Part shown: piece after piece, positions 3,873-36,728 of the stretch | How positions within the stretch are numbered: position 1 is the first letter of the stretch | Layout of the letters: every line of letters begins with the position of its first letter | Assembly: GCA_914767715.1 (NCBI GenBank) | Contig: OU612071.1 | Coordinates: forward strand, 10,153,493 to 10,217,492 | DNA: 64,000 bases | Direction of reading: 5' to 3' | DNA from: Membranipora membranacea | Lineage: Eukaryota; Bryozoa; Gymnolaemata; Cheilostomatida; Membraniporidae | Notes under the pieces: generated by a model | What the model was told of the DNA's origin: nothing | Database searches by the model: none | What the model saw: only the letters and a program-made list of their open reading frames with translations | Translations under genes and position numbers: made by a program

Positions 3873-6404
3873 AGATCCACTATACTTTCACCTTAAATTG
3901 AGAGAAATTGAGAATCCTGCCAGAGTAGACAGCTCTACTATCTTAAAATTGAGAAAATATATGCCTTCAATACATTGTCTCGCATTTTCTCAATTTTTAT
4001 TTTTTCTCAATTGGTTGGTTAATTAACATAAACAACACTAATTAATCTAAAATATGTAGTTATTTGCTGACCGACATTACCTCATAACTCAATGTCACTG
4101 TTGTGGTTATACTATAGTATTCTGGTGTGTTGTTGTTTAGTGATATCTGGCACTCAGTCTAGCATCTACTCAGTCTAGGAAGTTACTCTTCTATTTTTAG
4201 CTCTTTATATTTATTTTTGTCGTGTGTTGTAATAGATCATCTTTCAGTCATGGTTTATGACATCAGCTACACACATTCTGTTGTTATCATTACTTCCTTG
4301 ATGGATATATTCTGTGTAACGTTGCTTGCAGCTATTTCTGTTGATTGCTGTATATCATGGAGGCTACTTGGTACATATTTTGTATGAACATCTAAATCGT
4401 ACCATCTGGTATCTGCGGAACCTAAATTGAAGCATCACCGAATTTCCTATTTTCAGTACTGACAAAGCTGAGGCATTTCATGTGCACTACTACCAAGCAC
4501 TGCAATAATTACTCATAGCTTGAACTTGTCTCCCTCGATTTTCTAAAGTCTCTGTTTAACTTTGCCTCAAAGATTAATACAAATTCCATATTGTATTATG
4601 ATTAGCAAAATGAAACCTAAAGACAATTGAGGCCTTAACATTATTTTTTTCTTTCTTACTGAACAATATTTATCGATCAAAAGATTCGACTATTTTTTAA
4701 ATGTAAGTTCAATTAAAATTGGAAGCAGCCTCACCCGTATCCAAAGAAATGCTGAATTCGTACACTTACAGTTGTGTTATTGAAAATATGAATTCAATGT
4801 TCGACTTTTGCATGGGTGGTTGTAGTGTTAGCCTGTGTTTATGCTGTTTGTCATGCTTAGTGTTGCGTCTCAAGTCTCAAAGTGAAAGTAATAGCAATGG
4901 TTGTTAGTTTGATGGTGTGTTATGCCAATTTTTTATTAACCTTGAATATTTAAAACATGGGTTGATCAGAAAAACTGGGGGCACAAATCCGACTGTGGGA
5001 GATAATGTACAACCTGACATGCAAATTGACAGCGATCCCTTTTTCCTAGGAATTCGCAATGGGCAAGTCTTTGCTTCCTATATGTGAAAATATTCCGGAT
5101 AAAAAATATGGGTGCATTTATAACCTGGCGTGATAATCAACGTCATGGCCTTAAATCCAATTGCCAAGACCGAGAGTGTATCTTAAGGGCATAAAAAAAA
5201 ACATTTCTGTACCATAACTTTGTTTTTTTTTGTATTCTTTACAGCACAGTTGCATCAAGCATGCTGTGTTCTCCTGTAATATATTGGTAGAGCTTTGAAT
5301 CTTTCTACAGGGTTCGGACCTTGATTATACTGTCAGGACTAACCCATATATTCATGTTGGAGGAGTCAGTTGTGATGACGGTTTTTAGTAGCGGAGGAGC
5401 TGGATTGCAGTGTAATCAGATTTGTACCTGACTAAGCCTCTGTTATATCAGATTACTGCCCTGGTGGTCTTTAGCTATCCTAGCCTCTATTTCCCGTACA
5501 TTTGATAGTGATAGATAGTATCGTGAATTTGTGAGTTTTTACGTTTGGTGCCTTTCTCCACATCTTTTGTCGCCATGTAATCTTTTTTGTACACGCAAAG
5601 CTGCACCAATGGTTTGGTTTTACACAATAGTCACTAATTGCTCAAGAAATCTAAAACCCCTTGCCACACAGGTCAAATTGAGAGCAAAAACACTCAAAGT
5701 TTAAAAAAAATATATTCATATAATTAGTCATTATGACTCAAATCAGACCATAGATATAACTAGTTTTTGCCGGTAACCAAAAGCTGTTGATGAACAAACC
5801 TTTTTTTGCAAATAAAACTGGCAATCAAATCCAACATAATTGATCATATCTGCTCAGTCTCTAAGTTTGCCCTCCCATACTGTATCATGAAGCTGTGACT
5901 TTGCTGGGTCATAGCGTAGATAAGTATTTGAATTTGTAGATGGGTATATCAGTACACTACTTGTTACACTCTGCTCTCCATCAAATGGATAAAATGACTT
6001 ATACCAGCATTCTGATTTGCTTGGTCTCTGGAGTGATGTCTAATGAGTATAAAAAACTAGTTTGCCAGTTTAATATCAAACATGTCAGAGTTAATCACAT
6101 TACAACTCCACTACACTTGTACTAAACATAAGCTTAGTGAGCTTTTTTTTCATCTATTAAAGACTTAGTTTGAGGCTGCTATTTTGTATCAAATCTTATT
6201 CTCCATATTTAATTCTATCATGTGCGCAATTTCTAGCTGTGGAATCCAAACGTTGAGGAAGTTATGGTTTCTCAAACTTTCAAGGTGACGGCAGTCAATC
6301 GGAATTGAGAATCAGCGGGCAATCCATTTGGGACGTCTCAATGCGTCATACTTAATATGAGTATGTTCTACTAATATTTCCACAGATAAGATGATGATCA
6401 AAAT

Positions 6405-6530
6405 TTAGACCTAGGTGGGACTCGAGCGCCGCTACAATCGTACCACTAGGTCTAGCTCTGTGAGACTGTAGACAATATAGATCAGTTGTAGCGGTGTCGC
6501 CTGTTAGGCCAAGTGGATAAGGGTTAGAGG
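6405..6530 (-). repeat. tRNA-like repeat fragment
   Basis: The minus strand has a B-box-like GCTCGAGTCCCACC near 6415-6430. The plus strand has TGTTAGGCCAAGTGGATAAG near 6500, like the D-arm of class II tRNAs. Short inverted stretches (GTAGCGG...CCGCTAC) join the two. It looks like a SINE remnant with inverted parts. No cloverleaf can be folded. Confidence 0.35.
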
Positions 6531-7466
6531 CCTACTAAATCCCAGAACATTATCAGTCTCTTATGTACATTTTTGAGATATCTGTATCAAGAGTCATAAT
6601 CCCTTCAACTGTCCCTCATCAGGCAATCACATTATTTAATACCGATCACACCTATAATAGTATGGTTACTCAGGACGTAACAAACAGGTGCCTTTATTTA
6701 TCACGCAGAAGAGGAGTTGACAGGTACAATCAGGTCAAAGGCTCTGTGGTTTTCCCTATAGAAACATTTGATAGTTTTCTAGATAAAATCCAGTTATAAC
6801 AATGGATTTCCAGGCACCAAATGGTATTGCTCTCTATGCTCTAAACATCCTCTTGGTTGCTGAATACAGTGTAAACAAAATCTTTGTTATAAATCGAAAC
6901 GAATATGACGTCAGTATTATGCTTGGGTGACTGAGGACATAAAGATGATACTCTTCGGTGTGTGTTTGAGAAGCCGGGTGCCTTGTCGATGGTGAATGGT
7001 GCTTTATACGTCACTGCGAAAGGTAGAATCATCAAAGTCGAAGGTTTGTGCCTGAAATAAGAATTTCTGGGAAGTTTTTTTTCTCTTTGAGTGCTTGCAT
7101 TGGACCCTGTTGCGAGACTAATTAATTGTAAGAAAGCAAGTGTATCATCATCCCTCAAAGTTTTTGTGCAAGAAATTCATTATCTAAATGTCACCTGTTC
7201 AAGGTACCATGTCTTGCGGGTGGATTGTCACACACATTTCTAAATTCATGTTGTTTTTGAGAAAATCAAACCAATTTCTTTTTTCACAATTGACCTTTTT
7301 ATAGCAAAGACATGTTGAAGGACAGAGCCAAAGCTGTCAATACGTGGGAACTTTCTGGTCAAGATATCACTCCTTCTCTAACTTTTAACACCTTCAGTTG
7401 CGACATGATATTTCAAAAGCTTTTGATGGACACCATTCAGAATTTATGAACAGTTTTTATTTGTAG

Positions 7467-9764
7467 AAACAACTTGACATCAAATCTCCGCCCTAATATG
7501 ACAGAAAATTCCGATGACCGCACAAGCAACATCTCAAACATGTCAATCATTGGTGAGCATGTTAAATAAATATATAATATACTTATCTATTACAACCCTG
7601 TTAGTAGGTACAATTGTAACAATATATTTTCAAAAGTCATAAAAAAAGAGTTTAACACACCAAGTTGGCATACATGCGAGGCCAAGCAGATTCTGATAAA
7701 TCAATCTAATTTACAAATAAAATTTATCATGACTTTGTTGCTGCTAATGATATTTTATTTTATATCACTCAGATAACAAAGAGAAAATAGCTATTTTAAA
7801 CATCTCCAGTGAACCTCTTCAGACAAACAGAAGCACAAGCGTGCCAGGAAGGCAAGGTAGGAATGGATTTAACCATACAATTGATATATTGTTAACAATA
7901 ACATCTATATAGTCCGGACTTGAAGCTACTGACATGAAATGTCCTTTGTAGTTCAGCGCATCCCTCATCTTGCAACAACTCTGTCCTAAATCCTCTTTTT
8001 GAAGCATTACAAAAACTTTAAAAGCAAGTGAATGGAGATTTTTACTATTTTGAAAGAGTTTGAACTTCAATTTGACAGGGCAGGTGCTTTAAAAAGGTGG
8101 GAATTAAACATTTTCAAATTCAAGATTGCAAGTATTCTGACTATACTATTGAGATAATTTTATCGCAATAACCAGTCAAGACTATGGGGTTAGGCATTCA
8201 GATTGAATTAACTTGGGAATTATTGTATGCTCAAACTTAGAAGGTGGTTAGAAGTTTCTGTAAACAAAGACCAAATTAATTGAGTGAATCTATCTAAGGT
8301 CAAAAGCTTTTCATCGAAATTAAGACCATGAGGTGTGACATGGATAGTGCCCACCAATTTACAAACGAACGCATTGCTATCAATCTATTTGATCTTGTCA
8401 GTCTGTCAGTCATTTAGCAGACAGAAAGTTTGCCCTACTGAACGGAAATTTCCCAAATATAACTCTCCTAATTGAGTTATAACTTGTTTGCAAAGTTTCA
8501 AATAAATGATAAATGATTTTCAAAATCCATATCCCTTGGCATTTTTACAGTGAGATCAACTTGGCCAGGTAGCTAAATTAACCTCGGTTTGGCTAGATTA
8601 ATACAGGATATACAGACTAACCCAACAACAATTTCACGCTCCATATAATGTTTTGCATCTATTAACTGTACCAGGTTGTCAATGAGATCAAGATGAGGTC
8701 TGGTTTTCAACCAGATACAGCCTTTTTTGCATAATCAATTACCCTGGTTCACCAAACACCGGACTATCGTGCATCTCCCATTGGTAACATGCCCACTGTG
8801 TTTCTTGGCTTGTGATGACAGCTGAGAACTTTTTTAGTTCACTTTACTAATAATCCATTGAAGGCGAAATCAACAACAATGAAGATCAAATATTTACCGT
8901 GTACTGAGGTTTGTCTTGCTATGCAATACTATGAAAAAATGGATAGCACGGTGTCTTTGCGTTATGAGGCATGAACTGAATTAGGGAGGGAACTGAATCT
9001 GTATCAACTAGACAATGGTTTCCAGTCTTGGGTATTAATATGTCTATGGAATTACAAGTCAGGGCATACTGAGTCACAAACTGTTTAGCATTGATCATTT
9101 AAAAAAATAAGCTCGGATTGCATTATTGACCATTACATTTCATAACAACAGATGTAGCTAGAGTACTCCTAATATCTGACAATGAATAGTCACATTTGCA
9201 GATTATCTGAATCCTTGTCTAATTTTACGCTCATTTCATCATTATTTTACATATGTAGGTAGATGTTTTATACCTGAAACTAACATTATCTCCTTTTTAT
9301 GTTGGAGTAACTCATCTTACCTACTTGGAGATAGCGTTAATATCTTGCTCAACAGTGCTTACCTTCATCATTATTGGACTGGTTACAAGGAATGTCTTAA
9401 GATTAAAGATCTACAAAGAGGTGCTCAAAGCTCTATTAGGTTTGTCTGCCAATTACAACTACAGTATATGGACAAAGTGAGAGAAATGCATGAATGTTTG
9501 GCTCTTTGGTAATTGTTCAGTGAATATTCTTGTCTTCTTGAATCTTCAATGTTGGTTACATATGAAGATATAGCTGGTATCAAAATGCAAGAAGTTCGTG
9601 TCGGTAGATACCAGTCTCCCTGTGCTCAAGCAGTTAATCTCAATCAACAATCTGACGAAAGCTATGCAGTGCCAGAGAGGATACAACATAAAGATACAGT
9701 ATACACTTCATTGAATCAGGAAGCCCATCCTTCTACTCATGTGTATGCCTCTATAACATACTGA
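7467..9764 (+). CDS. Putative single-pass receptor, four 3' exons
   Basis: Four exons join with consistent phase: 7467-7552, 7773-7856, 9263-9439 and 9568-9764. The first two encode a Thr/Ser/Asn-rich stalk with many N-glycosylation sequons (NLT, NMT, NIS, NMS, NIS, NRS). The third holds one hydrophobic helix, CSTVLTFIIIGLV, followed by basic TRNVLRLKIYK, a normal stop-transfer. The last encodes a tail with YAVPE, DTVYTSLNQ and the C-terminal VYASITY, spaced like phosphotyrosine docking or weak ITIM-like sites. AATAAA at 9848 suits a poly(A) signal. All internal introns are phase 1, usual for modular extracellular proteins. The ligand-binding exons and start were not found, the donor at 9440 (GTTTGT) is weak, and the family is not recognised. 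Confidence 0.5.
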
Positions 9765-12337
9765 TGACTTATGGGAGTCACTACTTCGGCTCAACTCATA
9801 TTTTGTCTATTATCCAGTAATTATATATAGTCTAATAGAAAAAAATCCAATAAAAGCCAATGAAAATAGGAAAACAGTGTTCAGCACAAAAGGCATGGCA
9901 TAGCAGATATAGCTATGTATGTGGATTTGGACACCTGTATGCCAACAAAGCTGAATTCCTGTCCAGATTCAGCTGTCCAGAAACAATGTTTTTTTACAAC
10001 CTAAGAAATTGTATAATACAACTGTGTTATTGTATAAGATAAATACCTAGCAACAAAAGTGTGACATCAATAGCAACTCCTGCCACAGATACCAAACTTT
10101 CCAGCATCTACCCTCACATCGAAAAACTAAGTTGATGTGTGTAGTTTTGGAACAAGCGTCTATCTTGGAGTTTTACACTCACAGTTCTATAATACAAGCG
10201 CCAAAGATTGGATTATAATCGTAAGGACCTGCAAAGTCAACAAACCATTGTCATTTAGATGGTGGACTACTTGTGTATGTTCAGGTGGTATTAATTGTAG
10301 GAACGACAAACAATGATTAAACCTGCTAAAAATAGTTAGCCTCAATAAGTATAAGTAAAATCACAGATAATATGGTGCAACACTTGTGTGATATACAGAA
10401 AAGAGAAATCTTTTTAGAATAAATCATTATCATAAAACTTGGGCCTATATTATGTGAACCAGATAGAGAAAGATAGATAAAGAAGAGTTAAAAATGTGAA
10501 GTGTGTAAAATTATTTTACGTTCAGCCCAGGAGCATTTGTTTTGCATACCCTAGAGCAATACGTTCTTCGCAGGAGGAAGAGTTCACCTCTCTGCACTAA
10601 TTTGAAAATGTGATATTTATGGCTAGCCCCACTCTATTCAAGCATATTTCTTCATTATTCATTATAACTACAAACTAAGCTAGCAAAAATATTGTTAGCT
10701 AAAATTAGGTCATCTGTTGTAGCTACTCTACTCATTGTTATTTGGCATCATTAGAATTCTCTCGTACAATTCATTTACAGGAAAGCTTGAATGTGATTAG
10801 TACACAACAGAGGATTCTCTGTACATAGCTAAGATTATAGCTGAGATTAATTCTCAGATCAAAGCTCATGTCCCTCCCATGCCTGCTGCACAGTAGACGA
10901 CATCTGCGTGTCTCAATTAAGAGTTTGAATGACAGAAAACCCAACGTCTCAGAATCTTGCTTCCGCATTTACCTTCTCTGGGTGGAGTTATCTGAGCCTT
11001 GATGTTGAGAGCCCAACTTGTTATTTGCTTTATCAGTATTATAAAATCCACACACTCTAAATTCAGCTCATGCTCTGAAAAATTTCTAATACCGAAGTCT
11101 TCAAGGTTTTTATCGATCACCAATGGTATTTAGCTAACGTTTTTTTATTTTGCCAGGGGCTATGCAATAAGACACATTGTTTTTTATCGCAGCAATATTT
11201 ATATTGCTATTTTTGGGATACATGCAATGCAGGCGATGATGTGTTATCAATTTGCTGTGTTCCCTTCATACAGATATTGGAAGTAGTGAAATATTAATAA
11301 AATATTTGATATTTTCTCCAATGTAAATTAATGATTGCAAACGGTTGGTCTCAATGGTTGCGTCTCTCCCCCTCTCGAGCATCGAATGATTGATTTATTA
11401 AATTGTTATCACTAACTATAAAAGTTGTGAGAAAAAGTTTGGGTACACATACTGTCCTTGTCAAAGTAGTGAAGTTGTCTTTTATGCAAATTTAAAATTA
11501 GAAAATATTATTGTTGATATAAATTAATAAATGCATATGTGTCGCAAGAATCATTCTTTTCCCTAGGCAGTACAATATTTGTGTCAAACTAAGTGCATGG
11601 TTCTGAGATTAACAGCTATTGATGTACAAAAGGCTGCAGTCGTGTGTCACAATTTTAGGTTAACTTTTCTGTACAATGGCTCGCTTGATTGCTTCTCGGT
11701 CTATTGGCTAAGATCAAAGTTTTACTGCCAATGGCTTATTTGTGCCAGTTTCAGTTCAGTTCTGTCATGGCCTCACATCTAGGATGCATTTAAGTTTACT
11801 AGGATGTTTCATATTCTCAGTACAAGGTTTGGGGCACCTTGCATCCCTCTTTAGGGGCAGACCAATCTTCTGTTTCTCATTTAACAGCATGCTGCCTAGC
11901 CTTGTCTACTTCCACCCTGTATTACTGAAAAGCACAAAGATACAAAATAAAGATCTTGTGCATTTTTAGAATTTGTTTTCCGACAATGTCCAGATTTGGC
12001 AAAAGAAGATTGTCCACACTGATATGACACAGGACAACAATAGCATCGAGTCAGAAAATGGAATATGCTTTTGGGATAGGGAATCACTGTACTGTACAGC
12101 GGAGAGTGTGATTAACAAGCAATACCCAAAGGCCAGGTTTCCGTGTGATTAGTTCCAATTCCCATACGCTAACCCAGCCTATTGATACATGCCGAAGACC
12201 TCCAATATTCACATTTCCGATCCGAAGGTTGGTTTTGGTAATTGCTCAAGAGATGCTGTTAATAATGCTAGTCTTACAAATCAAACAAGGTATTCACATG
12301 TTTTTCCGATGAAACAGCTCACAAAAAGGTTTTTGCT
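9765..12337. other. Intergenic, nothing recognised
   Basis: AT-rich sequence between the receptor-like gene and the 3' end of the minus-strand peptide gene. Open frames at 10771-11123 (minus), 11579-11969 (plus) and 11896-12087 (minus) are short, overlap one another in different frames, and show no domain, codon bias or splice context. Confidence 0.45.
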
Positions 12338-12343
12338 TTATTA
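12338..12343 (-). promoter_or_regulatory. Poly(A) signal of the minus-strand peptide gene
   Basis: TTTATT on the plus strand is AATAAA on the minus strand, 87 bases past the stop codon (12430-12432) of the peptide exon. The position is normal for a 3' UTR and supports a real transcript. Confidence 0.6.
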
Positions 12344-12429
12344 TTGCAACCTTGCATCATGTCAAAATCTGAATGGATAATAAGGTAAATCGGGAATCAG
12401 TGAATCAGATTGCATCAGCAGCCGGATTT

Positions 12430-15400
12430 CTAGCCTTTAATTGCCTCAACAACTTTCTTGCCTACACTGATGGCAGCATCGATTGCTAAACCAGCAGCTG
12501 CTGACTTGGCTTCTGACTTTATCAACTTACTGAAGACCCAGCTTCAATCTGTACAACAGATATAAACAAAAGTATACTTAGAGTGATAACAAGAGCTTGT
12601 CAGAACCATATAAGAAAAATTGATGCACTAGCCATTGTGTATTATCAACTTCAGGGATGAATATGCTCTAAATATTTAGAGAATGAATTTATCTTCTATT
12701 GAAACAATCCTCATTCATTCACTAAATGCTAGCAATCCGAACATGAGAAAACAATATAACTTAATTAAAATGCAAAACGAAACGTTGCACCCATTGGACA
12801 GGTTATGTAAGAAATTCGTATGAAGGGTTATAATTTTGCTCAATCATTCACTATTTCAATATTCAATATTCTAGCAATCCTAAATTGTACATGAGAAAAT
12901 TATATAACTCAATTAATTCTCTAAATCAGTTGCGGCCATTGACAAAGTTATTTAAATAATTTGCATACTGCAGTTGCTACTGTGGCCCAGAAAGCCGGAT
13001 AAAACTAAACTTATCTGCTGTGAATTTAATTTAAAAAGGCCTGAATTGAATTAAACATTTCAGTGAATTTAATCAAACTTCTCTGCATCAAACTTTTCTG
13101 TTCTGCATCAAACTTTTCTTTTCTGCATTAAACTTTTCTACTCTGCATCAAACTTTTCTACTCTGAATCAAACTTTTCCGCTCCATTGATATCAACCACC
13201 CTATATTATATATTGCTGCATGTAGGTCCTCAGTCTACCAATAGTTCATAGTCAATAGGCTTTCATTTCAATCCATCATCGATGATTTGCAATAGAACTG
13301 CATGGCAGTCTTTATCAAGGCCACAGTCACACAGCATGGACAATACGTTTCTCCCAAACATTTCGAACAGCTACCCTGTAGGAGTTTAGTTTTCGCGGCA
13401 TTTAGGATTCGCTTTTCGGTTGTTGCCTAGGTTGCGAAATTTAGTGTAACTTAAATTAAACTCACTCACCATAGTTTCATAAACAACGTAGAATTATACA
13501 GGAATACACCTTCCCTAAGCATGCAAGCTAGTGTGGTGTAGTGGTCTAAGTGTCTGCCTAGCAATCAGATGGAGATTTATGCCCTGGGTTGGTATCCCAG
13601 CTAGGAAATTAAACTCTAGCTAAATTAAACTCCTATAGGGTATATCAGAAATCTCTATTGAAACTGGTTTATACAGGGAGACCCTCTGTTTGCTTTTCTA
13701 GACAGATTATTATTTCTTCATGTATGTTGGATTCTAAACCCGTCCAGCACATAAATGTGAAAAGTGAATCATCATAGAAATTGTTGATTGCCTTAACAGG
13801 CAGAAAGTCTCATTGTCTTCGGACCCATCCTTTCACAAATTTCGTTAGGCTATACGCTGAAGCTAAGCTATTATCATGTATGAGTCTGAGTATGTATGAG
13901 TCAGATTGCTAACAAAAATGTACAACATTCTGCTGATGCAAAGCAATAAAACCTCATAGAAAACAAAGAGCTGGCATCTGACCAGATTCAATTCTATTTC
14001 ATGACACCTGCTCTTACTAAAATAATTACCCTAGTAGAGGCTGGCCCTTGCAAAAACCTCTGCACCACTTGGAATACTATTATTACATCTGTATGTATTA
14101 CCTAGGTAAAAACTCCCTTTCCCTAATGTATTGGGATGTTTTCTTGAACTGCAATTTTAGCCTGTGCATATTATCAAAGTAGTATTATATCCTGTGTGGT
14201 TATGCAGCAACCCACTGGTGTGAATTGTCATGTTTGTGTCAGTATCAATTAAAAGTTTGACAAATTGTTTGAAATTGTGGTATTAGGTCAGACTCGTGCT
14301 AACAGAATGAATTAGGTTTTCGGGTGAGGATGGTGGCCAGCAAAACCATAAGCCCATTTATTTGTAGCGACCTCACTTAGATTGCTGCAGAGTTCATATT
14401 GTCAAGCCAGCAGAAAACAATGTCCATACATTAATTGCTTCATTTTTTTAAATGTTATATTGGTTACTATAGAAATTTCATGGAAATCGATTATTGGTAA
14501 TGAGTGGAAGAATAAATTTTATGACTTTACCATTAGTAAGATAGCAATGAAAATTCCCTTTTTGTACAGTATAAGAAAGATTTGAGGCCAGTCAGTCTAG
14601 GGCTGGTGATAAGTTGTTGCCCTTAGTATAGTAAAGGTCGCTATTAAAGTTTGTTCCCAAAAACTAGGCTTGTTTACTGACTAACAAGAATGATAAGAGT
14701 AGTGGTTAGGCCCACAAATGAAATCGAAGTTTCATCGTGACTGTATACGACAAAAGGTCCCACTTGTAAGGATTTCCGTTTGCTGTAAAAGCTATTTGGG
14801 AATTCAACAAATATTTATAAATGTATTGATTTCTTATACCTGTGTATTATTGAAATTCCCTGCTTAAAAACTTGTAGTTTATAAAGCTGAGGATAACAGC
14901 CTGCATGGTACCAAATCTTAAATAATGGACCTGCATGTATGGTATAAAATATTTGTACTGGGAACGCCCACAAATAGCTGGTTACCCATCTTTCATCTTC
15001 CTTCTAACAAAATGTGCACCAAAATATTATGTGAGGCAAATTTGTAGATTGAGGACCTGCATACAGTAATACATAGTATATAGGGTGGTTGATATCAGTG
15101 GAGCGGAAAAGTTTGATTCAGAGTAGAAAATTTTGATGCAGCAGAACAAAAAGTTTGATGCAGAGTATAAAAGTTTGATGCAGAACAGAAAAGTTTGATG
15201 CAGAATAGAAAAGTTTAATTCAGAGTAGAAAAGTTTGATTAAGAGGAGAAAAGTTTGATGCAGAACTTGAAAGTTTGATGCAGAAAAGTTTAATGCAGAA
15301 AAGTTTGATTAAATTCACTGAAATGCTTAATTCAATTCAGGCCTTTTTTAAATTAAATTCAAAGCAGATAAGTTTAATTTTATCCGGCTTTCTGGGCCAC

Positions 15401-15489
15401 GGTAAGTTGCTGTAGTAACAATGTCAATGAGTATTTAAAACTGAACTCAGTGCAGCAATAATCAGAGAGATCAGTGCGAAGACCTTCAT
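12430..15489 (-). CDS. Secreted amphipathic mini-peptide, paralogue 1 (spliced)
   Basis: Signal-peptide exon at 15499 down to about 15442: after acceptor TTGTTTAG the ATG at 15489 starts MKVFALISLIIAAL, close to the MKVLVLVSMLIAAI of the plus-strand gene at 18754. The mature part is at about 12529-12430: SEAKSAAAGLAIDAAIS then VGKKVVEAIKG and stop. It is short, alanine-rich and cationic, and would form an amphipathic helix. The terminal Gly could be converted to an amide. Non-coding exon 1 probably lies at about 15683-15635 behind a TATA box, and AATAAA follows the stop. The weak point is the signal-exon donor. The GTGAGT of the paralogue is eroded here, leaving GTTCAG or GTTTTA, and the acceptor choice (12526 or 12530) must match it. 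The gene may be decaying, or may use an extra exon. The intron holds a foldback transposon. Confidence 0.6.
12980..15402. mobile_element. Foldback-type DNA transposon with tandem repeats in its inverted arms
   Basis: The two ends are inverted copies. The left starts CTGTGGCCCAGAAAGCCGG and the right, read in reverse, CCGTGGCCCAGAAAGCCGG. Similarity runs inward about 255 bp (left, to about 13235) and 355 bp (right, from about 15045). Each arm carries a tandem array of about 20-bp units built on CTGCATCAAACTTTTCT, roughly 6 on the left and 10 on the right. This is the layout of foldback elements. TA dinucleotides flank both ends (12978-12979 and 15403-15404), so a TA target duplication is likely. 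The 1.8-kb centre has no transposase frame. It sits wholly inside the intron of the minus-strand peptide gene. Confidence 0.8.
13528..13612 (+). repeat. tRNA-derived fragment inside the foldback element
   Basis: TGGTGTAGTGGTCTAAGTG resembles a tRNA A box and D-arm, and about 45 bases later GGTTGGTATCCCAGC resembles a diverged B box and T-arm. The acceptor stem does not pair, so it is a tRNA-like remnant and not a functional tRNA. Confidence 0.45.
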
Positions 15490-15634
15490 TTTCTTGAATC
15501 TAAACAACAATAAACATTTATATCAGATTTGTCGTGTGGTAAGCAAGAATCTTAAAACATGACTAAAATATGAATATTTTCTTTCAGCATTTCTTTGTAT
15601 GAGATTTCCACAGCTAAATAAGCTGGATACTTAC

Positions 15635-15713
15635 TGTTGATAATATTATATAACTGTGAGTTGCTTTATTCTAGTTGACTTGTGCTCTCTACATCAAACG
15701 TACACTTCTTATA
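15635..15713 (-). promoter_or_regulatory. TATA box and non-coding first exon of peptide paralogue 1
   Basis: On the minus strand GTATAAG lies at 15714-15708, a start site would fall near 15683, and a strong donor GTAAGT begins at 15634. The acceptor TTGTTTAG before the signal exon ends at 15500. The arrangement matches the plus-strand paralogue and the peptide gene at 46.6 kb. Confidence 0.5.
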
Positions 15714-17997
15714 CAGCTGTGGGTCAGGCAATTCATCAGGATCTTGAATTTGGTAAGTTAAATTCAGGAATATTAATTATTATAAAAAAAATACAAATTA
15801 AAGATCATTGGAAATCTATTTAAACTATTTGTTCACCCTAACCACACCACTGCCACATGGTTTTTAAACGTTAATATGATTAATAAAGTGGAAACATAAT
15901 CATGAGCTCCTCTTTAAACTATCTTCATTCAAGCAAATGTGATACTGAATTTTCCTGAAATGACCACTAAACAGGAATTTGCATCAGGACATCCGAGACT
16001 CTGTTGTGACAACATTTAATTAGTTGTGTGTTCTAGGATACAAAGAACAGTTTTTATAAGAATAAATCATTGTGATTGAGCTTCATGACGCCAAAAAAAA
16101 GTTTAAACTTATATTAAGTCCACATCTCAGAATCATCCACGAAGGCTACTCCCAAATCAAAACGAGTCATGCATATTTGTTATTTTTTGATCCGCTGATG
16201 TTCCTGGACTCAGAGAGTATTCATAAAATATATTTTGAAATTAGCTTTATCAGAAACAAAGTGGAATTAGCACTGATGGTAAGAGCGTGTCATCTAGCCA
16301 TGTCACGCTACTTTCTTACCCCGAAACAAAATAAGAAGCCGCATTGCTAGGCTATTTATCCGTACAACATAAATATGAATATTCAGTTATTTTCACAGTG
16401 CAATCTCAATAAAGAACAATGTTCGTCCATTTTGTCTTATTCCCTCAAATATGAGATTTCTAAAAAATGCCGACAACATCTTTCATAGTAATTTATCTCA
16501 AGAATCATTATTTCTCGTGCCCCACAAATTTAGTTAAAAACGTCAGAGTGATATATCGTCTGACAGCACCATAATGATGCAATTTTTGTGCGCGCTTGGT
16601 CTTTAACCCTTTAATGAAAAAAACCCTAAATTATCTCAAACTGGTGGAAGTTATGATATCAGCTTTTTGGGAAATCTCACAATTTCCTAATTACTCCCAT
16701 AATAATCACACATCCTTATCAATAAAGCACATCCTGTAAGAACATGGCAGAAAAGCAGTTTTTGCCTGAGTTGTAATAGTAGATAGTATCATGTGAAAAA
16801 AGATCATACTATATGCCAATGCCAAATTACATAAGAAAGGGGCCATCAAATATGTGTTGCATTAAATACTTGAAAATGTGCAGATCATTGGCCAAAATTT
16901 GCCCAATGTTCTATGCTAAATATCTCAATATCTTAATGCTCAGGGTGTATGTCAGTTCATATGTACAGAGCAGTGTAAAAAGTTGATATTTAGCTGTGTT
17001 GCATTTACACCCCAGAAGGGTACATAATGAGTACATAATGAGTACATAATGAGTACATAATGAGTAATGAGTACATAATGAGTACATAATGAGTAACCTT
17101 TTCCCTACTTGTTCTCTTTTTGCTACAAACAGTGTCCAATAAAAGGAACATTGGAGACTGCAGTTCTTTGAACATTCTAGAATGAGGGAATCTGTACCCT
17201 GTTAAACATGTCATGTAAGTCATGTACTCAAATCAAATGTGGACTTGTTTTCAGAATATAATTGTTCTAATTCTAGTTCTGGAAGCCAATAGTTATGTAT
17301 AACTAGGACAAATGTCTTATCATTAATTGAGTAATGTCCTAATCACTTCCATGTTAATCACATTCACAATCACATTAATCCCATTTGAAATTACACAACA
17401 GGTCTTTGAACATCCTAGATTGGGGCAATTTGATCTAAATTGTATACTATTTAATGCAGCCATATTATTGGAATATTATTGTTCTAACTATCTTTTGGAT
17501 GCCGATGATCATTATAAAACTAAAAGCAATGTCTGCTTGTAATGAAGCCATATCCACAATTGAGTAATTGTATGGATAATGTCCTAATCACTTTCACATT
17601 ATTCACTCATTACCCTTACTGATGATGTTTGAAAATATTTTATGGCAGTTCCTTGAAAGCGACCACGATGTGTGTGCGTATCCTGTTATGAAAAAACTGT
17701 ATGCTCATGTTGAGTAAAAGACTTCAAAATATGAGCTTTTGGTTCCACAAGATAAACTCAGGCCAATTGAAAGCTGATTAATCTGATGATGTCAACATTT
17801 GATGTTTAATGTGCCTAATTAATTAATTAATTGTGCAATTGGTCTATAAAGAGTCACTTCCACCACCATCTTCACAAAGATTGGACAAAAATGTTGCTGT
17901 TGTTTGTTTTCCAGCAAAAACGGCAAGTAAACAGGAAAACCATTAACCAAATATTGATAACTTCCAGCAACAAGTCATCTGTTTGAAATGTTCCACA
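15714..17997. other. Shared upstream region of the two divergent peptide genes
   Basis: About 2.3 kb between the two head-to-head TATA boxes. No gene is supported; the open frame at 16072-16350 has no recognisable content. An 11-bp tandem repeat (17018-17095) and the near-duplicate stretches around 17120-17230 and 17270-17420 lie here. The latter share phrases such as TCTTTGAACAT followed by TAGAATG or TAGATTG and an ATGT(C)CTAATCAC motif. Confidence 0.4.
17018..17095 (+). repeat. 11-bp tandem repeat
   Basis: About seven units of GAGTACATAAT, one of them shortened. It is simple tandem DNA with no coding meaning. Confidence 0.8.
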
Positions 17998-18073
17998 TAT
18001 ATAACGAGGCCTCACCATACAACCAGCCATACACTCTCTGATAGTCATTCATCCACTGAAGTCTAATTTAACT
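17998..18073 (+). promoter_or_regulatory. TATA box and non-coding first exon of peptide paralogue 2
   Basis: TATATAA at 17998-18004 is followed about 30 bases later by the expected start site. The leader ends TTTAACT at 18073 against a strong donor GTAAGTTG. The next acceptor is TTTCCAG at 18746. The first exon has no ATG in good context, so the leader is non-coding. Confidence 0.6.
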
Positions 18074-18753
18074 GTAAGTTGTATATAATATAAGCGATAG
18101 ACAGTCTTTTTTCACAAACACATTGTTTTAGAGCACATAGACATTAATTAGTGATGTTCACAAGCTCTAGTCCTGCAAGTTTGCTTTTACTTCTTTTTTA
18201 ATAATCCGCGCTACAACTAGAGCTCATAGACACTACCTATACCTAGCACCAGCATGGTTCTCTCCGTGGTTTTTCACTCGTAACTTCTGGGCTTAGTGGT
18301 CAATCACCTTCATATTTTTGAATTATATTCATCGATCTTTCTCTGCAAATTGCTAAGTTTCAAAGATGGATGCGAAAAATATCCTGTGATATAGCCGTAC
18401 GAAACATGATGGTTTATTTGCTTGTCTTTATGGCTCCATTACATGCATTAGCATGGTGGAATGATGAGTTTTGTTTTATGTTTTGGTCTGTGTCTTTCAT
18501 CATTCTTTGGAGAAAATTTACAAAATATGGATTCTCTCAAAACACTGATAATGAATTTTATCCTTTGAAGTCCATTTTGGTGAAAGATATGTATGTTTGA
18601 TTATAAAATTTCCTAATAGTATTTACCTACATTGCACCCATGGTTAGCTATCCAGGAAAAAGGCCAAGATTTCCATTTTGATTATTATTCATTTCAATTT
18701 GATGAACCAATCAGTATTTAATAAAATACTTTTTTATTCTTTCCAGATAAAAA

Positions 18754-19611
18754 ATGAAGGTCCTCGTACTGGTATCTATGCTCATTGCAGCAATCGGTGA
18801 GTTGAATAAAAAGATCCTGATATCTTTGGCGTTGCTACCCAATCCACATAATACTAAAAACTCAGAATTCTTCTCATATTCATCCAAAGTGGGATTTTCC
18901 AGATTAAAGATTTGATTTTAATTGAGCATCTAGATTCTTATAAATTAAACTGAAAATATCACCATAGAAACCAATTGTATTTATCTGAAATGCCCTAAAT
19001 TCCACTTTGGTTTATGAGTCTGGAATTTGTCGGGAAGGCGTACAGAGCTCCATATACTCCTAAGCCATTCATGCAAAGGGTGTTTTGTGCCTTTGGTGTG
19101 GCACTACGTGATACAGCCAAAGCAAAAGTCAGAGTTTAGAATCTTCCTGGTGTCGCTAACCAAGCCTCATATCAACACGGAAAATAAGTCAAAATATATC
19201 ACATGAAATAATAATCAGGCCTGAATGTTGTTTATATTTGGTCTAACTCTTTAATACTACTCCCTACAACCATAATAATTAAGATCATCGACTCCCACAT
19301 TTCAGTCATTATATTGATGCGCTAGTTATTTATGAGGAGGCTTAGAAGATTCAATGTGTTGTCTTGAATGGTGATTTGTTACAGACAGTAACTGCCTGGC
19401 AAACCCGATTCTTCACTTCAGACCTTATTTGTCATTCTCTCACCATATATGTATATATATCAAATATATATATATATTCTTCTTTATCATAATATATATT
19501 TTATTCCCAGCCGTTACACAGACAGAAGCTAGTCAAAGTTCTGCGGCTGTAACAAGGATAATCAATACACCTGAGAAAATCGGAGAGGGTATCAAGAATC
19601 TATTCGGATAA
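18754..19611 (+). CDS. Secreted amphipathic mini-peptide, paralogue 2 (47-residue precursor)
   Basis: Two coding exons: 18754-18796 (ATG eight bases after acceptor TTTCCAG; donor GTGAGT at 18797) and 19511-19611 (acceptor ATTCCCAG), a phase-1 join. Exon one encodes the signal core MKVLVLVSMLIAAI. Exon two adds AVTQTEA, where cleavage after TEA is plausible, and then a mature part beginning SQSSAAVTRIINTP and ending EKIGEGIKNLFG, about 26 residues with no cysteine. The helix is amphipathic and the terminal Gly is a possible amide donor. The precursor size and design are those of secreted host-defence or signalling peptides, but I recognise no family. A 3' UTR intron (GTAGGG at 19621, acceptor TTTCACAG at 19910) and AATAAA at 20030 complete the gene. 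Its paralogue is on the minus strand at 12.4-15.7 kb. Confidence 0.7.
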
Positions 19612-20035
19612 AAAATCAAGGTAGGGATTGATATTCATGTGACCATTACTAGTGTGTAATTTTGCCACCCAATTTGATTTGCTAATAACTATGTTTCGTA
19701 CTTGTTTAAGTTAGGAGTATTTAACAGTCCAAACTGAAACTGACAACCCCCACAATCCAAGTCATGCACAAAATAACTTATTGTATGCACTAAGTTCTCC
19801 CTTGTATGTTTTACATGGAATCCAATTACATTTTAATTTTATATTATTTCTCTCCAAATATTATTATTTGATCACAATAATGACAAAAATATGTGTATTT
19901 TTGTTTCACAGGACAGGATATCATCAGTGAACAACGGAAAGATTCTACACCCAACACACCAAGGTCTCGCGGCTTTCTCTGAAGACTTACAATACTTTGA
20001 TCATTATTTATTTCTAATGGTCGTAATGTAATAAA
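19612..20035 (+). other. 3' UTR with intron and poly(A) signal of paralogue 2
   Basis: After the stop, AAG|GTAGGG at 19621 and TTTCACAG|GACAGG at about 19911 define a likely UTR intron. AATAAA lies at 20030-20035. An intron downstream of a stop can expose a transcript to nonsense-mediated decay, but the stop is only about 10 bases from this junction, too close to matter. Confidence 0.5.
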
Positions 20036-21404
20036 AACAGTGACTGTTGTTTCACAACTCATCATCTCAGTGATGGAGGCATCATTGGTGTGTCGTAACT
20101 ACTTCCATGTAGCTGACGCTACTCCACTTTTGAATTACATAGCTCAATATGATGGCTCAGAAACCATATATTCTAACAGTAGAAGAAAATCACCCTTGAT
20201 ATTGGTTACTCTGCTGTGAACGAGCAAAGTCAAATGATGAAAAAAAAGAAGGTAATTTGCCCTAAAAATAGGGGACTAGTATAATATCAGTCATGATGCT
20301 TCCGACAGCAGAAAAACCCCTAAAATAGGCATTTAAATACTCAAGTTGGTTGGGGCCATTTGAAAAACAAGTACAATATATAAAAACAACAGTGCATTGG
20401 GGAAAAGTGAAGTTGTCTATTAAAATTGTTTTTGTCGAATTTATTTTCAAAACAGAGTTATCATCTCATGTATTATGGTCAACGGCAAAAATGTATGAAT
20501 TGTACAAAGCAATCAATGATTTTAGTTCTTGAATGCTTAAAATTATAATGTCCTAGAAACAGGGTTCTATGACAAGGAACTGCCAATTTCAAGGATAAGG
20601 TTTAAGTTTTAACAAGCAATTCCTCCTTGGTTTTATAATATTCATGATGTCCATCATATTACTCCCTGCACAAGTAAACGGTAGATGGACTAACAAGTCT
20701 CTATAATTAATGCTGGAGTCCATATTCAACCTTAGGGGTATGTAAGGGATTTATATCATCATAAGAGTAGTATTTATTATCTTATCGTAATTGTCTTTGA
20801 GACTCATGGAAAAAATCTCCAAAACCTACACCGCACCTAATCGTTAGCAGCCTTACTGGTTATCAAGTTTAATTCTTTAATATTCATTTTTGACACTACA
20901 ACGTTATAATAGAATATTCTTTTACTCTTCATCATCAAAATTTGGGAGTAGATTAAATCAAGAATTTGAAAGTTGGTTTGTAACAACAATGAGCCACGCT
21001 GTATCCAAATTTAGCATACCTTATATCTCTGAGCTAGGCTGTGACCTTCATCCTATGTCACACTGTAAGACAAATTTATGAAAATACGTCACTAGCCATT
21101 GTTGATCTCCCATCAAAATCTTTGATATGTCACAACTAAAATATGAGGCATTTGAAATATTCTGTCACAATTATAAAATATGGTGCCACTGAACAATAGA
21201 AATGCCTTTTTAATGAGTTGGTTATGATACTATCCAGTATCCAATGTGGCTCATCCCATATTTGTCAGAGAAAAATAGTTCTTTCTAAGTTGCAGTGTAT
21301 ATCTTAGTTTTTGACGTTGTGTGAGTCGATATAAGCTGTTCTGCTGACAGTTAAATACATCCCTCCATGCACTCAGCAATATGAAGCTGCTCTGTCATCC
21401 TTTT
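20036..21404. other. Intergenic, nothing recognised
   Basis: AT-rich sequence with short unrelated frames (20262-20532, 20890-21081). No domain, splice or repeat signal is strong enough to name. Confidence 0.4.
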
Positions 21405-21548
21405 ACAAGAGCCAGTACAATAGCCAGTACAAGAGCCAGTACAAGAGCCAGTACAAGAGCCAGTACAAGAGCCAGTACAAGAGCCAGTACAAGCGCCAGT
21501 ACAAGAGCCAGTACAAGAGCCAGTACAAGAGCCAGTACAATGGCAAGT
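21405..21548 (+). repeat. 12-bp minisatellite, 12 units
   Basis: Twelve nearly identical units of ACAAGAGCCAGT, with single-base variants in units 2, 7 and the last. Being a multiple of three it stays open in several frames on both strands (RAST repeats on plus, LALV-like repeats on minus). Those frames are artefacts of the repeat. Confidence 0.9.
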
Positions 21549-21656
21549 ACAGTGTTAACAATATTAATCTTGTCTCCATTATCAAAAGTTTTACTTATTG
21601 CCTTGTCACCATGGGGCAGATAAATCTTAAATTTTGAAAATTGGTTTGTTACAGTA

Positions 21657-21690
21657 TAATGATAATAATAATAATAATAATAATAATAAA
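21657..21690 (+). repeat. (AAT)n microsatellite
   Basis: About ten AAT units, just downstream of the 12-bp minisatellite. Confidence 0.9.
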
Positions 21691-22317
21691 GTTTATTTAT
21701 GAAATGTTTAATAAAATTGTTTAAAAACAATGATTTCTAAGCGTTGTAAATTTGATAAAAGGTTAAAATAGAAACATATACTATGAAATAAGCCAGCTGG
21801 TAAAATAAATAAAATTGATTAAAATTTTGTTATCATAAAAATAATTAATGAGATGAGGAAAAAAAAATAATGAAAGATGAGATAACTAAGATAATTGAAA
21901 CCTACAGGTGGCAACTGCCCAGCACCTAAAAATCAACTATAAAATCTAAATATATGGGGTATATGCGTCCCGGAAACGATATGTTTTTAACTGTGTTTAC
22001 GCTGTTGCGCAACCAGGGAGGCTGCCAACTCTTCATCGTTTCAGTGCAACAATGTTCGCCCCGTCACTCTCATGTTTATACTCTAAGCCAAACCGAAACC
22101 GGCTAATATTAATAAAAAAATTAATATTAAATGAAAATATTCATTCTGTAAGGTAGAATCAAAGAAATTCTCTCCCATGCCATGATCTAACCTTCATGCA
22201 TAGTTCTCTCGCTTGTGTGTCCGATTGTCCACATAGTTTTGCAGACAGTCTCTACTGGTTGGCCAATCAGAAATACTTTTTTGATTGGCGGTCAGGAAAG
22301 TTATTGGCTGATGACAA

Positions 22318-22765
22318 TTGCATTAGTGGCATCGATGAACGGACCGTGTCATTTGCTGAATAGACAGAACATCTTTTGACGAATGGATTAGAGTGTACAC
22401 TGTTCAAGTATGGTCAGAGAGACAAATATCTGTGATTTGAGAACAGAGTAAGTTATTTTGCTGCATGCTATATCCCAAAATGACAAATCATCCAAAAATG
22501 GATGATTATGGGCATGTTAGTTAATGTACAGAAATTATCTGCATCACCCCTCAGCTTTATCCATTCATGATAAAATTATTGTAGAAGCTTCCAGTCAAGA
22601 GTGTATAGCTTTACATTCAAGTCATTATCTCCCCATCTCAATTGCGAATCTATTTGTGAACAACTCCTGTCTTTATAGCCCAATTATTGAACAGATAATA
22701 TTATTATTTGACAGATGGCATTTCAATTTATCAGCCCGATGTGCGACAATAAGGATGTGTACGGC
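22318..22765 (+). mobile_element. Retroelement-like repeat family R, copy 1 (5' part)
   Basis: This block recurs at 41995-42350 and 44562-45015 on the same strand. Shared phrases include GGATTAGAGTGTACACTGTTC, GACAAATATCTGTGATTTGAG and CATCACCCCTCAGCTTTATC. In the other copies it is followed by RNase H remnants. Here it stops after GACAATAAGGATGTG where the 125-bp element begins, so this copy is truncated or interrupted. The open frame at 22524-22793 is part of the repeat and has no recognised domain. Confidence 0.75.
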
Positions 22766-22894
22766 AGACGAGCTGCGCCACGGTGAACAATAAAATGGGA
22801 ATGGCGCAGCTCGGCTACATGCAATTTACATGTGGCGCAGCTCGGCTAGAGGCAATTTATGTGTGGCGCAGCTCAGCTAGTTTCAAATTTTGAA
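22766..22894 (+). mobile_element. 125-bp CpG-rich miniature element, copy 1
   Basis: It begins TACGGCAGACGAGCTGCGCC and ends GGCGCAGCTCAGCTAGTTTC. It holds three direct copies of GGCGCAGCTCGGCTA-like units spaced about 35-37 bp, plus one inverted copy at the start, so the ends can pair. A second copy in the opposite orientation lies at 36600-36722 with the same termini. It is far richer in G+C and CpG than its surroundings. Confidence 0.8.
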
Positions 22895-24499
22895 GCCATG
22901 AGAACACAACTCATGAATTTGATAGTCTGACTCTACTCAGTCCAGCTCAGTCGGAAACAAAGTTGGAGTCAACTTGCGTTTTGGAGGTACGATTGTTAAC
23001 AACTAAGTCTGCACCATCTTGATAGCTGAGTCTAATAATTGGGTCCTAGGCCTGACTTTGAGGTTAGAGCATCAATCACTGGCCTGAGCGCTTAAAGGTG
23101 ACCTTTTTAATGTTATCATTATCAGACATTCTCAACACAGAGCCACATTGAAAAAGATATATGCAGAGAAGAGGTAACTGTCAGGTGAATCTTACCTACC
23201 AAGGACCGGCATGGACTACCTAGGAGCAATGAACTAAACCTAGTTCATTGCTAGGAGTACTCCCTTGGTATGTCACTAAAGACAGTGCTTGGACCAATGT
23301 GTAGAATCTATGTTTGTATGGATTTATTTTTGTCATTGTTACAGTGAATCGGAGTCAAAGAATTGGTGGGATGTTGATGATGATGCAGCAGTACCCTCAC
23401 TGGCAGACTATCATGACCCAATGGTCCTACTCCAAAACCTGTCTGGGTCTGTGGCAATGTTTGACAGTCATATTACGTTCAATTCTTTCATTCAATGACC
23501 TCTTAGTTCTTTCTCTAACCCAGGAATATTAACTTTTTTTCACAGTTCAGCATCTCATTTGGTTTCTGCATAGATTGATCAAATTATCATTTTCCCTTTC
23601 AGTAAGGTTGAAGACAAGGTGATGACAACAAAATATAAACCAGCCTATGGCCCAGTAGTCTATCATAATATTGTTGGAAATAAAGTCATCTGGATGATCA
23701 ATATGCTGACACACAACTTGCCGATCAACTATGAGATACGAGTCTGCAATGTAGTGCCACAAAGAAGGCCAAATGACATCTAACTCCTTGGTCTTAGTAT
23801 CTATGCATTTTTTGATTGCTTGTGGGTCAGGTTTTCAGTTTAGGAACTAAAGCAGTCAAGCACACTTGAATTGTAAATGCCCAAAGTGCCACTGACAAGC
23901 TGATTCAAATCAATCGTGAGTTGTAATAGACAACAAATACATCGGTGAACTGACTTGTCAACTGTAATCTGTAAGTGGGTACCAAATTATATCAACGTTT
24001 TCTCTCTGGTCAGATTTTTATTTCTTCTTCTCACGTACCATGTTTGTTTGTTGTTGAGGAGCTGACATAACTGGTTCCTTCATTTTTGTTTCGTTATCTG
24101 TTTTGTGTAACGTAATTTAAACAATAATAATTATACTATGCCTAAGAAAGTTCACTTGACACATTTTTGTGACAGCTGTATTACCATCTATTCATGCAGG
24201 GATGATATGACTTGGTTGTTTAGTCTACAGAATAACGCATAGATGGATTGGAATTTTGTCAACAGTGATTGAAAGTTCATTGGATAAAAAACAGCTTAGG
24301 TGCCCTACTTAGGTCTCGTTCCCAAATCACTCTCTCATAGATAGAACTCAGAATGCATAGGTAAACGATATTTTGTGCACGAATTGTCTAATTGAGCAAA
24401 GTGTCGCTGTTATGCATATTATATTCAATGTACCTGAAAATGAAAATTAAAAGCACAATAGACTGTGAATCGATTAAAGGTTGATTATAATCCGATGTC
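22895..24499. other. Intergenic, nothing recognised
   Basis: Apart from the hairpin at 23225-23252 I see no gene. The frames at 23289-23532 and 23547-23762 (minus) overlap in alternative frames and lack any recognisable domain. Confidence 0.4.
23225..23252. repeat. Perfect 12-bp-stem hairpin
   Basis: AGCAATGAACTA, four-base loop AACC, then the exact reverse complement TAGTTCATTGCT. CTAGG-type bases flank both sides. No T-tract or element boundary is obvious. Confidence 0.7.
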
Positions 24500-31049: not shown

Positions 31050-32045
31050 CATGTCTACTCCAAAACCTGGGTTGGTCTCTCTGTCGCATATTCTACCCAC
31101 TTGGGGCCGAATACCCGAGCAGAACAGACACCACTATTTCATTCATTTTGCTCATGATTATTTTGTATGGAGTTAAGTTCTTCCTGTTGAGGAAGAAGGC
31201 AACTCCATACAAAAAGTGTTTTGTTTACCTAATCAAATTAATCCACAACATTGTTCTTTAGAATTTTGTTACAAGCAGATATTAGTTCAATTTACTAATG
31301 CCTCATAGTTGAGATGCCTTTCGACATTAAAATAAGACTTTATTTTGATTAAATGGTGGAAATAAGTTTAAACAGTCATCGTAAAAAAATAAACCATGCT
31401 CTATCATACCGTCAAAGTTTCCTGTGCAAAAGGTCAGAATAGGTCAACTCCAAAACAGTAAGTCGTAGTACGCTCCAAAATAGTAATACGCTCCAAAATA
31501 ATAGTAATACGCTCCAAAATGATAGTAATACATAAATATTGCAGAGTGATATGCTGCTGAGGGCTCTCCAAAAAGAACTGCCCTACCTTGATGTTCCCCC
31601 GGTTTTTATATGCACCGGGGTTCATCACGGCGGGTGAGCATGGCCAAAAGACCGGAGGTTGCATTTGCCCATCCTCTTGACAAAAGCGGAGATTTGATTT
31701 AGGTTTTGTGTCTGATAAAAAGGTTTTAATTATATATATCATTTAAATGCTTGCGTTTGAACCCTCCATAAGACGGAGATTGGACTTTAATTCTTGTCTG
31801 ATAAAAAGGTTTTAATTATATATATTATTCAAATGCTTGCGTTTGAACCCTCCAAAAAGACGGAGATTGGACTTTAATTTATGTCTGATAAAAAGGTTTT
31901 AATTATTTATATTATTCAAATGCTTGCGTTTGAACCCTCCAAAAAAACGGAGATTGGACTTTAATTTATGTCTGATAAAAAGGTTTTAATTATATACATT
32001 ATTTTGAAGTGGTTGACGCCGTCTGGCATAGGCGTATTTAACTAT
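31050..32045 (+). mobile_element. Repeat family H, copy 1 (hairpins plus 93-bp tandem units)
   Basis: Most of this block returns inverted at 51640-52280. Internal parts are: a long hairpin at 31167-31210 (TATGGAGTT arms plus CTTCTTCCT / AGGAAGAAG type pairing); four CTCCAAAAT-based units of about 21 bp at 31445-31530; a GC hairpin CCCCGG...CCGGGG enclosing TTTTTATATGCA at 31599-31622; and about four tandem units of about 93 bp at 31687-32005, each with CTGATAAAAAGGTTTTAATT and TGCTTGCGTTTGAACCCTCC. No protein frame is supported. It is probably a non-autonomous mobile element. Confidence 0.65.
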
Positions 32046-33769
32046 CTCGAACTCGAATGTTAGAGGCAAGGATGGTTAGAGTGTTGGGAAAAATGTTCCA
32101 CCCTCGAATCAAGTAATGAGGAATTGTCTTCTTTTTCTGTTATTATTATTAGTTGTCCTCTCCTTGTCACTGGACATAAAAGTAAAATTTTGATATGAAA
32201 CCAGTAGACTCTTTGTTGTCTATTGACATTCCAAGGTCATCTTAATTAATACTTTGGGATGCAACGAAGTTACAGGAAAATACAGATAGAGCAAATCTTT
32301 TCTCCCTAAAAACTTCCTCATGCTACCCTAATGCTACCCAAATCTCTGGAGTATTGCTCTGTATATATTGTTACCCAGAAAGTCCCTTGACTTTTATCCC
32401 TCCAATCCTCTCATCAATATGCATATTTAGCAACAAAGCAAAGCAAGCACACCTGTCTGTTTTTGTTTTTTTTTCATCATCATCATCATGATCATCATTT
32501 CATTATTGATGATGATGGTTGGTGGTTGATTGATTGCTTGTTGTTGATTCATTGATTTTATTGTTGTGTTGATTGATTGAGACTGTCAACAGAACCCCAC
32601 AGAACCACCACTTGGCCATCATAGTCATAGCTATCAATCATGGTCACAACACAGCCTCAGAGTCAGACCCACTGCAGTCATCATGGGCACCTGCTGGATC
32701 AGACATAGTACACAACATATTGCAAAAGTTAATATGTTGTCAAATGTTAATATTCTCTACTCTAACAATTTGTTAGAGATGTCAGATGACATTTTCTTAT
32801 GTAATCATCATGAAGGACATCATGTTTTATAATTACCTTAGTGTATAAGAGCAACCGTAGTTTCTTCCGAATGTGCAACGATCACTTACACAACATGGTA
32901 TTGAAGTATCCTTATTCTCAAATGATTTATTATTAAGTGCGACAGTACAAAACTAAAGGTCAATCACATATCATATAAAGACGCAGACCAATAAATAACT
33001 AGTTAATATTCAACAAATACATTTCTGTACCAGACCTTGAGCCGAAACCATACAATTGGTAACAGATCATAACCTGGATTAGAAATCCCATAAAAATATG
33101 ACACCTGTCAAAACTGATTACCCTTGCACCTATTATTGGTCATTGTTAGTTTCAAAAAGCGGAGAAAAACAATGAGCTTACAAAAGTCAAAAGCTAAGAC
33201 TAAGGGTGAACTCTAGGTCACCAGACATTATAACACAAATAGCACTGGTTTCTGATTATATTTTTTTTCTCATAAGTTCCATTGTCATCCACATGTTGTC
33301 AATTTGAATAGCTATGGTGATCTGTTTCGGCGTGATTATTATAGGCTTGACCTGCTTGTTGTGAGAGCTTTGCTGCTTGTTCGCTGGCTTCGAATTGATG
33401 ATATGAGAACCAAGGACTTTAGAGTTATAGATATGAAATCGAATCAGGGCAATAGTGTAGTAGAGTATGCATTGAGATTTAACCCAGCATGCTGTGCAGA
33501 CAGGAAATCATCATTAATAATAATCTGTAAAACAAAACAAAGTAAAGTTAGTTTAAATTCAATTATTACTAAGAGCTTAAACTGAGACCCAACGGATACA
33601 TACTTAGGCATTCAGTGCATGGTGAAGGGTAGTTTAGGTTAAGGCTTAATCATCATAGGTAATCATTATTGAAATTTATCTAGACACAGGCTATATGGTG
33701 ATGGAAAATAGTAATATTGTAGTAAATAGAGGGAATAATACACTGAGGGGTTATTGAAATATAACAAAA
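32046..33769. other. Intergenic, low-complexity patches
   Basis: A T-rich and TCA/TGA low-complexity patch is at about 32460-32580. The open frame at 33304-33585 has no recognisable domain. Nothing else is supported. Confidence 0.4.
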
Positions 33770-34140: not shown

Positions 34141-34329
34141 GTAAAGGACAGATTAACCATGTTTTGACAGCTGGATAGTTAAAACTGACAAAACACGCAG
34201 GTCAAAAGAGAGTAATGACGAAATTGAGGCTAAAACCAATAACAAGGTAAACACCTTTACGCCTGTAAATGCAAACGTTGCACAATAACAGGACAGCAAA
34301 CCAGCACTATAAAAGCCTGATGGACACTT

Positions 34330-34495: not shown

Positions 34496-34555
34496 ACAGA
34501 GAGGAAAATTGTCTAAAAACTTTAGACACATTCAGCCAACAGAGCTTTTGGCAAG

Positions 34556-36722: not shown

Positions 36723-36728
36723 TCCGTT

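Follow-up and report, generated by a model that had tools for sequence, protein, structure and literature searches.

Cecropins and the dermaseptin-type peptides of frog skin are released from precursors made of a signal peptide and a short amphipathic helix that is often amidated, and in frog-skin precursors the signal is conserved while the mature peptide varies. Defensins, another class, are stabilised by cysteines. Bryozoan chemical defence is known mainly from small molecules. Bryozoans are named, in excerpts of the literature, among the sources of cyclodepsipeptides, and an excerpt of PMC7203481 mentions a big defensin in the bryozoan Flustra foliacea. No gene-encoded bryozoan antimicrobial peptide was reported in the titles or abstract openings of a sample of open-access papers on the topic. 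Here we analysed a 64,000-nucleotide stretch of chromosome 7 (C7) of the cheilostome bryozoan Membranipora membranacea (10.153-10.217 Mb; hereafter the window). Its initial annotation had described two head-to-head genes for tiny secreted peptides. Comparison with the whole genome (339,339,785 bases in 18 contigs) suggests that the two loci are members of a large Membranipora superfamily of short secreted peptides. We consider it rather probable that this superfamily has expanded within the lineage as a repertoire of host-defence peptides, amphipathic and amidated, in which the plus-strand gene is an intact member and the minus-strand locus a pseudogene.

The plus-strand gene begins with a TATA box (TATATAA, 17998..18004) and a non-coding first exon (18028..18073, start approximate) with a GTAAGT donor at 18074. 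Exon 2 (18747..18796) carries a 7-nucleotide (nt) leader and 43 coding bases from the ATG at 18754, encodes the signal-peptide core MKVLVLVSMLIAAI and is followed by the donor ATCG/GTGAGT. Behind the acceptor CCCAG, exon 3 (19511..19620) encodes the rest of the signal region and the mature peptide, completing a 47-amino-acid precursor, MKVLVLVSMLIAAIAVTQTEASQSSAAVTRIINTPEKIGEGIKNLFG, that ends in Gly-stop (stop codon 19609-19611), after which comes a donor, GTAGGG, in the 3'-untranslated region (3'-UTR). The last exon (19912..20050, end approximate) is non-coding and contains AATAAA at 20030. The mature peptide has a net charge of +1, or +2 if amidated, so the description "cationic" is right only in a mild sense. 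Dibasic sites (KR, RR, RK or KK), which in classical neuropeptide precursors flank the amidated peptide, are absent from the precursor; single lysine pairs occur in other family members, not as flanking sites.

A protein search of the genome with this precursor found five places: the window, three other sites on C7 (9.876, 10.040 and 10.547 Mb) and a diverged copy on chromosome 6 (C6, 26.009 Mb). Common to all of them are an acceptor immediately ahead of the ATG, the 43-nt exon with its donor, and the second acceptor. All four C7 copies have the TATA box and a non-coding first exon that is well conserved, and the C6 copy has a similar unit; in the TATA region the window differs from the other C7 copies by one base, just behind the TATA box. 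The 3'-UTR donor was also kept in all four C7 copies, and the last exon with its AATAAA was recognisable in two close C7 copies and not in the copy at C7:9.88. Because the splice sites and the precursor recur in three C7 copies and, diverged, on C6, we regard the plus-strand gene as a real, intact-looking family member, in agreement with the initial annotation.

Introns of the plus type differed by 3-6% among three of the C7 copies, by 36-39% between the copy at C7:9.88 and the other three, and by 54-58% from the C6 copy. Between the window and C7:9.88, the most distant C7 copy, 3 of 47 residues differed, with nonsynonymous (dN) and synonymous (dS) divergence of 0.029 and 0.319, respectively (dN/dS about 0.09; all such values by the Nei-Gojobori method); against the C6 copy, dN was 0.40 and dS 1.42. 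The plus type is, as judged from these comparisons, strongly conserved and under purifying selection.

The minus-strand locus told a different story. The two signal cores had been described as closely similar, and this was confirmed: the plus and minus signal exons are identical at 34 of 42 bases, whereas in 30 first-order Markov randomisations of the window the best match of each had 23-27 identical bases. However, the proposal that the locus is a working gene failed. Its signal-exon remnant (15448..15489, minus strand, ATG at 15489; MKVFALISLIIAAL), recognised by homology to the plus signal exon, has lost the family donor through a short deletion. In the second-exon remnant (12430..12555, minus strand, boundaries approximate), the start, VVQIEAGSS, and the helix, which ends in KG-stop, lie in different reading frames, and the acceptor AG used by relatives is absent. 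An inverted-repeat element, about 2.4 kb long (12978..15406), lies in the intron; its arms carry about 5 and 9 copies of a 20-bp tandem repeat. In-frame GT/GC-AG joins to the helix exist; because none of them uses a family-like acceptor, at the position seen in relatives, we rejected the locus as a working gene. Nor was a TATA box with a non-coding first exon of the family type found in the 4 kb upstream.

Two further copies of the minus locus showed related damage. The copy at C7:10.033 has the same donor loss, frame break and inverted-repeat element. The copy at C7:10.553 keeps the donor and has an empty site in place of the element, although it too lacks the relatives' acceptor and its frame runs past the Gly end. 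The minus locus is a true relative of the plus gene and, in this window, a disabled copy.

The intact relatives of this pseudogene are clustered at a distance of about 0.5 Mb. Searching the genome with the minus helix piece gave at least 19 places, all on C7: the window, the 10.033 and 10.553 copies and 16 loci (L033 and L035-L049) at 10.7046-10.8088 Mb. Of these 16 loci, 15 have the acceptor AG/CTG, and their second exon is open and ends in Gly; at 12 of the 15 the stretch that was read also includes a signal exon with a GTGAGT donor (for example, L037: MKVFALISLIIAALAVVQIEA-GVFSSVVKAAAKSAAAGLAIDAAISGGEKVIDAIKG). Our exon models take the family-shared acceptor; an in-frame acceptor further upstream at some loci would give longer products. 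A scan run without a reverse control listed 13 loci, among them L034 and L049, both without a match, and did not pick up L046; in 10 of the 13, a unit of TATA box, non-coding exon and GTAAG lay 228-279 bases upstream. Along the cluster, 13 of 15 neighbouring pairs are on opposite strands, giving divergent and convergent copies in turn; the head-to-head layout of the window therefore recurs in the cluster. For exon 2, the ratio of mean dN to mean dS was 0.61 over 91 pairs.

To cover the whole genome, we used a 35-position degenerate signal-exon pattern, derived from family members already known and allowing three or fewer mismatches. It matched 85 places (36 forward and 49 reverse), compared with none for the pattern read backwards. 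The matches fell on chromosomes 1 (C1; 32), 6 (7), 7 (23) and 10 (C10; 23). On C1, 27 lie at 32.46-33.17 Mb, four at 37.31-37.33 Mb and one at 34.88 Mb; on C10, 15 lie at 9.95-10.20 Mb, seven at 6.32-6.44 Mb and one at 6.82 Mb. Most of the 85 places are known from the pattern match alone. A promoter scan of the same kind as in the cluster matched at 13 of 20 pattern loci, and at 2 of the 20 when run on the reverse strand; a TATA box with a non-coding first exon is present in many family members.

Both coding exons were read at 30 loci (5 plus-type, 12 from the C7 cluster, 8 from C1 and 5 others). Ten C1 loci were examined. In eight of them the second exon is open and its product ends in Gly: six products end in ...AVSQTEAGVVSAVVKGAVK(S/T)GAAGFVADQAVKGLDKLFG and two in ...AVSQTEGGVAEAIYKAGVKSG(T/A)ALDNFFG. 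L068 on C1 has an early stop, and no open second exon was found at L069 (C1) or L050 (C6:16.17). Short stretches from other clusters gave an open second exon in all five cases, with products ending in ...AVTQTEAGVASIAIKGALKSGAAGFVADKAVDGLKSLFG (C1:37.31), ...AVSQTEAGVASKVIKGAVKSGAAGYIADQAVKGLDKLFG (C1:32.464), ...AVTQTEADLKSTIGKIVNSDAGQKVISVVGNVYDKIKG (C10:9.946), ...AVVQIESRGLGTLVTRVGKAVATSVAATAVIEGGKKVIDKIKG (C10:6.32) and, at L073 (C6:25.4396-25.4408 Mb), ...AVTHCDAKSLSEALEYYCNRNLCATVS. Three further signal-exon matches lie near L073 on C6.

Across these loci the anatomy is constant. A phase-1 intron sits at a fixed place, and one exon encodes the rest of the signal region together with a mature peptide of about 20-36 amino acids. 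The plus gene and 29 other loci share a 43-nt signal exon, a phase-1 GT donor and an exon opening of the AV-x-x-x-(E/D) type; the window's minus locus keeps the signal exon and neither the donor nor the acceptor. The product ends in Gly-stop at 29 of 30 read loci, with L073 as the exception, and the mature part is likewise cysteine-free at 29 of 30. The idea of a family of tiny, putatively secreted, Gly-terminated and almost always cysteine-free peptides with a separate signal exon, a TATA box and a non-coding first exon held, with amphipathicity clear in the plus type, and the family is far larger than the two genes from which it was proposed.

The signal and mature parts have diverged differently. 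Taking the inferred cut as the boundary (signal region, 21 residues), the signal region was more alike than the mature part in all 78 pairs of 13 representatives (means 69% vs 34%). On C1, we compared 13 of the 28 equal-length pairs, those involving L072 or L074, which are short and non-independent and were given no formal test; dN and dS were 0.04-0.14 and 0.40-0.54 for the signal region and 0.09-0.23 and 0.13-0.30 for the mature part, respectively. Mature dN/dS exceeded signal dN/dS in all 13 pairs, whose introns were 32-48% different. We propose, somewhat more tentatively than the host-defence role and at a little under even chances, that the 85 signal-exon places on C1, C6, C7 and C10, some of them broken, form a hypervariable gene-encoded chemical-defence repertoire derived from one ancestor, in which signal and intron stay fixed while the mature peptide diversifies.

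Under the host-defence reading, signal peptidase would cleave after ...EA, the exposed Gly would yield a C-terminal amide, and the peptide would fold as an amphipathic helix on membranes, where it could injure microbes or fouling cells. Three plus-type peptides were indeed strongly amphipathic, their hydrophobic moment being reached by only 1, 2 and 8 of 1000 shuffles. Several observations speak against such a role. Amphipathicity does not stand out in the remaining ten mature peptides, whose moment was reached by 16-344 of 1000 shuffles. The peptides carry a low net charge before amidation, from 0 to +5 and in most cases +1 to +2. L073 combines a family signal exon with a short mature part that has two cysteines and no Gly end.

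An offensive or deterrent cytolytic secretion, acting through the same membrane mechanism on neighbours, predators or settling larvae and not mainly on microbes, would also account for a large family whose mature part changes faster, and it would suit a sessile, kelp-dwelling colony (as described in an excerpt of PMC10290214); we consider it unlikely, if the strongest of the alternatives. Slightly less likely still are secreted signalling peptides (neuropeptides, or colony or larval cues), each gene supplying one amidated receptor ligand. The Gly-stop ends fit an amide donor and the plus type is strongly conserved; however, the clustering of 85 signal-exon places, the variable mature parts and the lack of dibasic sites in the plus precursor are more in keeping with a repertoire of effectors than with a ligand for a receptor. 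Structural or adhesive peptides of the cuticle or of larval settlement would be secreted and encoded in many copies, but such materials usually contain repeats, whereas the family sequences are short and amphipathic and appear free of them, and we give this explanation little credence. That the family is a functionless, decaying duplicated repeat is very improbable: there are broken copies (the window minus locus, C7:10.033, C7:10.553, L049 and L068) and recent kilobase duplications at 95-99% identity, but on four chromosomes reading frames and splice sites are conserved between copies with widely differing introns, the plus type has its low dN/dS, and promoter units are conserved.

Other features of the window were recorded. 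Large parts of 5635-24060 and 31607-43436 are repeated at C7:10.027-10.054 Mb, at a distance of about 130 kb, the long pieces being 95-99% identical; the segment may have been duplicated recently, or the repetition may stem from the assembly. A 187-amino-acid open frame at 757-1320 has no Pfam match and eight homologues, the closest 96% identical; in our view it resembles a C-terminal domain from the short-chain collagen-like proteins. On the minus strand, two open frames that closely resemble each other (37858-38466 and 42876-43382) have sub-threshold Pfam matches only, and a reverse-transcriptase fragment at 2324-2845 is also below the Pfam cut-off. A minus-strand PAN domain exon (PF00024, 23.4 bits; cut-off 21.4) lies at 62370-62690. 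A 404-bp tandem repeat (2.8 copies) occupies 52965-54081; at 53126-53203 it includes a tRNA-like match by Rfam (32.5 bits), with none by ARAGORN.

The initial annotation had not recognised the family, and our searches likewise found no named relative. Pfam gave no family at cut-off, Clavanin (PF05452) included, for the plus precursor or for other family precursors or pieces: seven of nine had no match, and two matched families other than PF05452 below cut-off (E 0.1 and 0.17). In the PDB, the plus precursor had no sequence match, and the minus helix had three weak ones (E 0.5-1.6), to viral or bacterial sequences. Among 5.8 billion predicted proteins there was no candidate for the plus peptide; a protein search with a cluster precursor returned two environmental entries, both reading like unspliced cluster DNA. 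Six peptide strings of the family occurred in none of 5.39 million open-access papers. The conserved signal exon could reveal a family whose members would be split up or overlooked in homology searches based on the mature part.

If the proposed repertoire is real, it would be the first cysteine-free amidated peptide arsenal to be described from Bryozoa and could serve both defence and competition between colonies. A gene-encoded peptide family of this size would give the phylum an effector system testable with existing RNA sequencing data, and would offer new peptide scaffolds for synthesis.

Among described peptides, papillosin of the ascidian Halocynthia papillosa (34 amino acids; sequence from an excerpt of PMC4306955) is also cysteine-free and rich in Ala, Gly and Lys, and a 12-residue stretch aligns (GIKAAAKSAAAG / GVKAAAKGAAVG). 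However, the alignment score of three cluster peptides was reached by 2, 17 and 244 of 1000 shuffles of papillosin, and the scores of the plus and C6 peptides by 604 and 699, respectively. In view of these counts and the Ala-rich composition, we did not adopt kinship. The big defensin mentioned for Flustra foliacea is, like the present genes, a bryozoan candidate for host defence, but the Membranipora mature parts are, with one exception, free of cysteine. The cecropin and dermaseptin-type precursors differ in that a Pfam search revealed no sequence relation and that no acidic propiece was seen here between the signal and the mature part. In the open-access papers examined, we found no such family described for the phylum Bryozoa; the Membranipora genes would constitute a new peptide family of a known kind, and an unusually large one.

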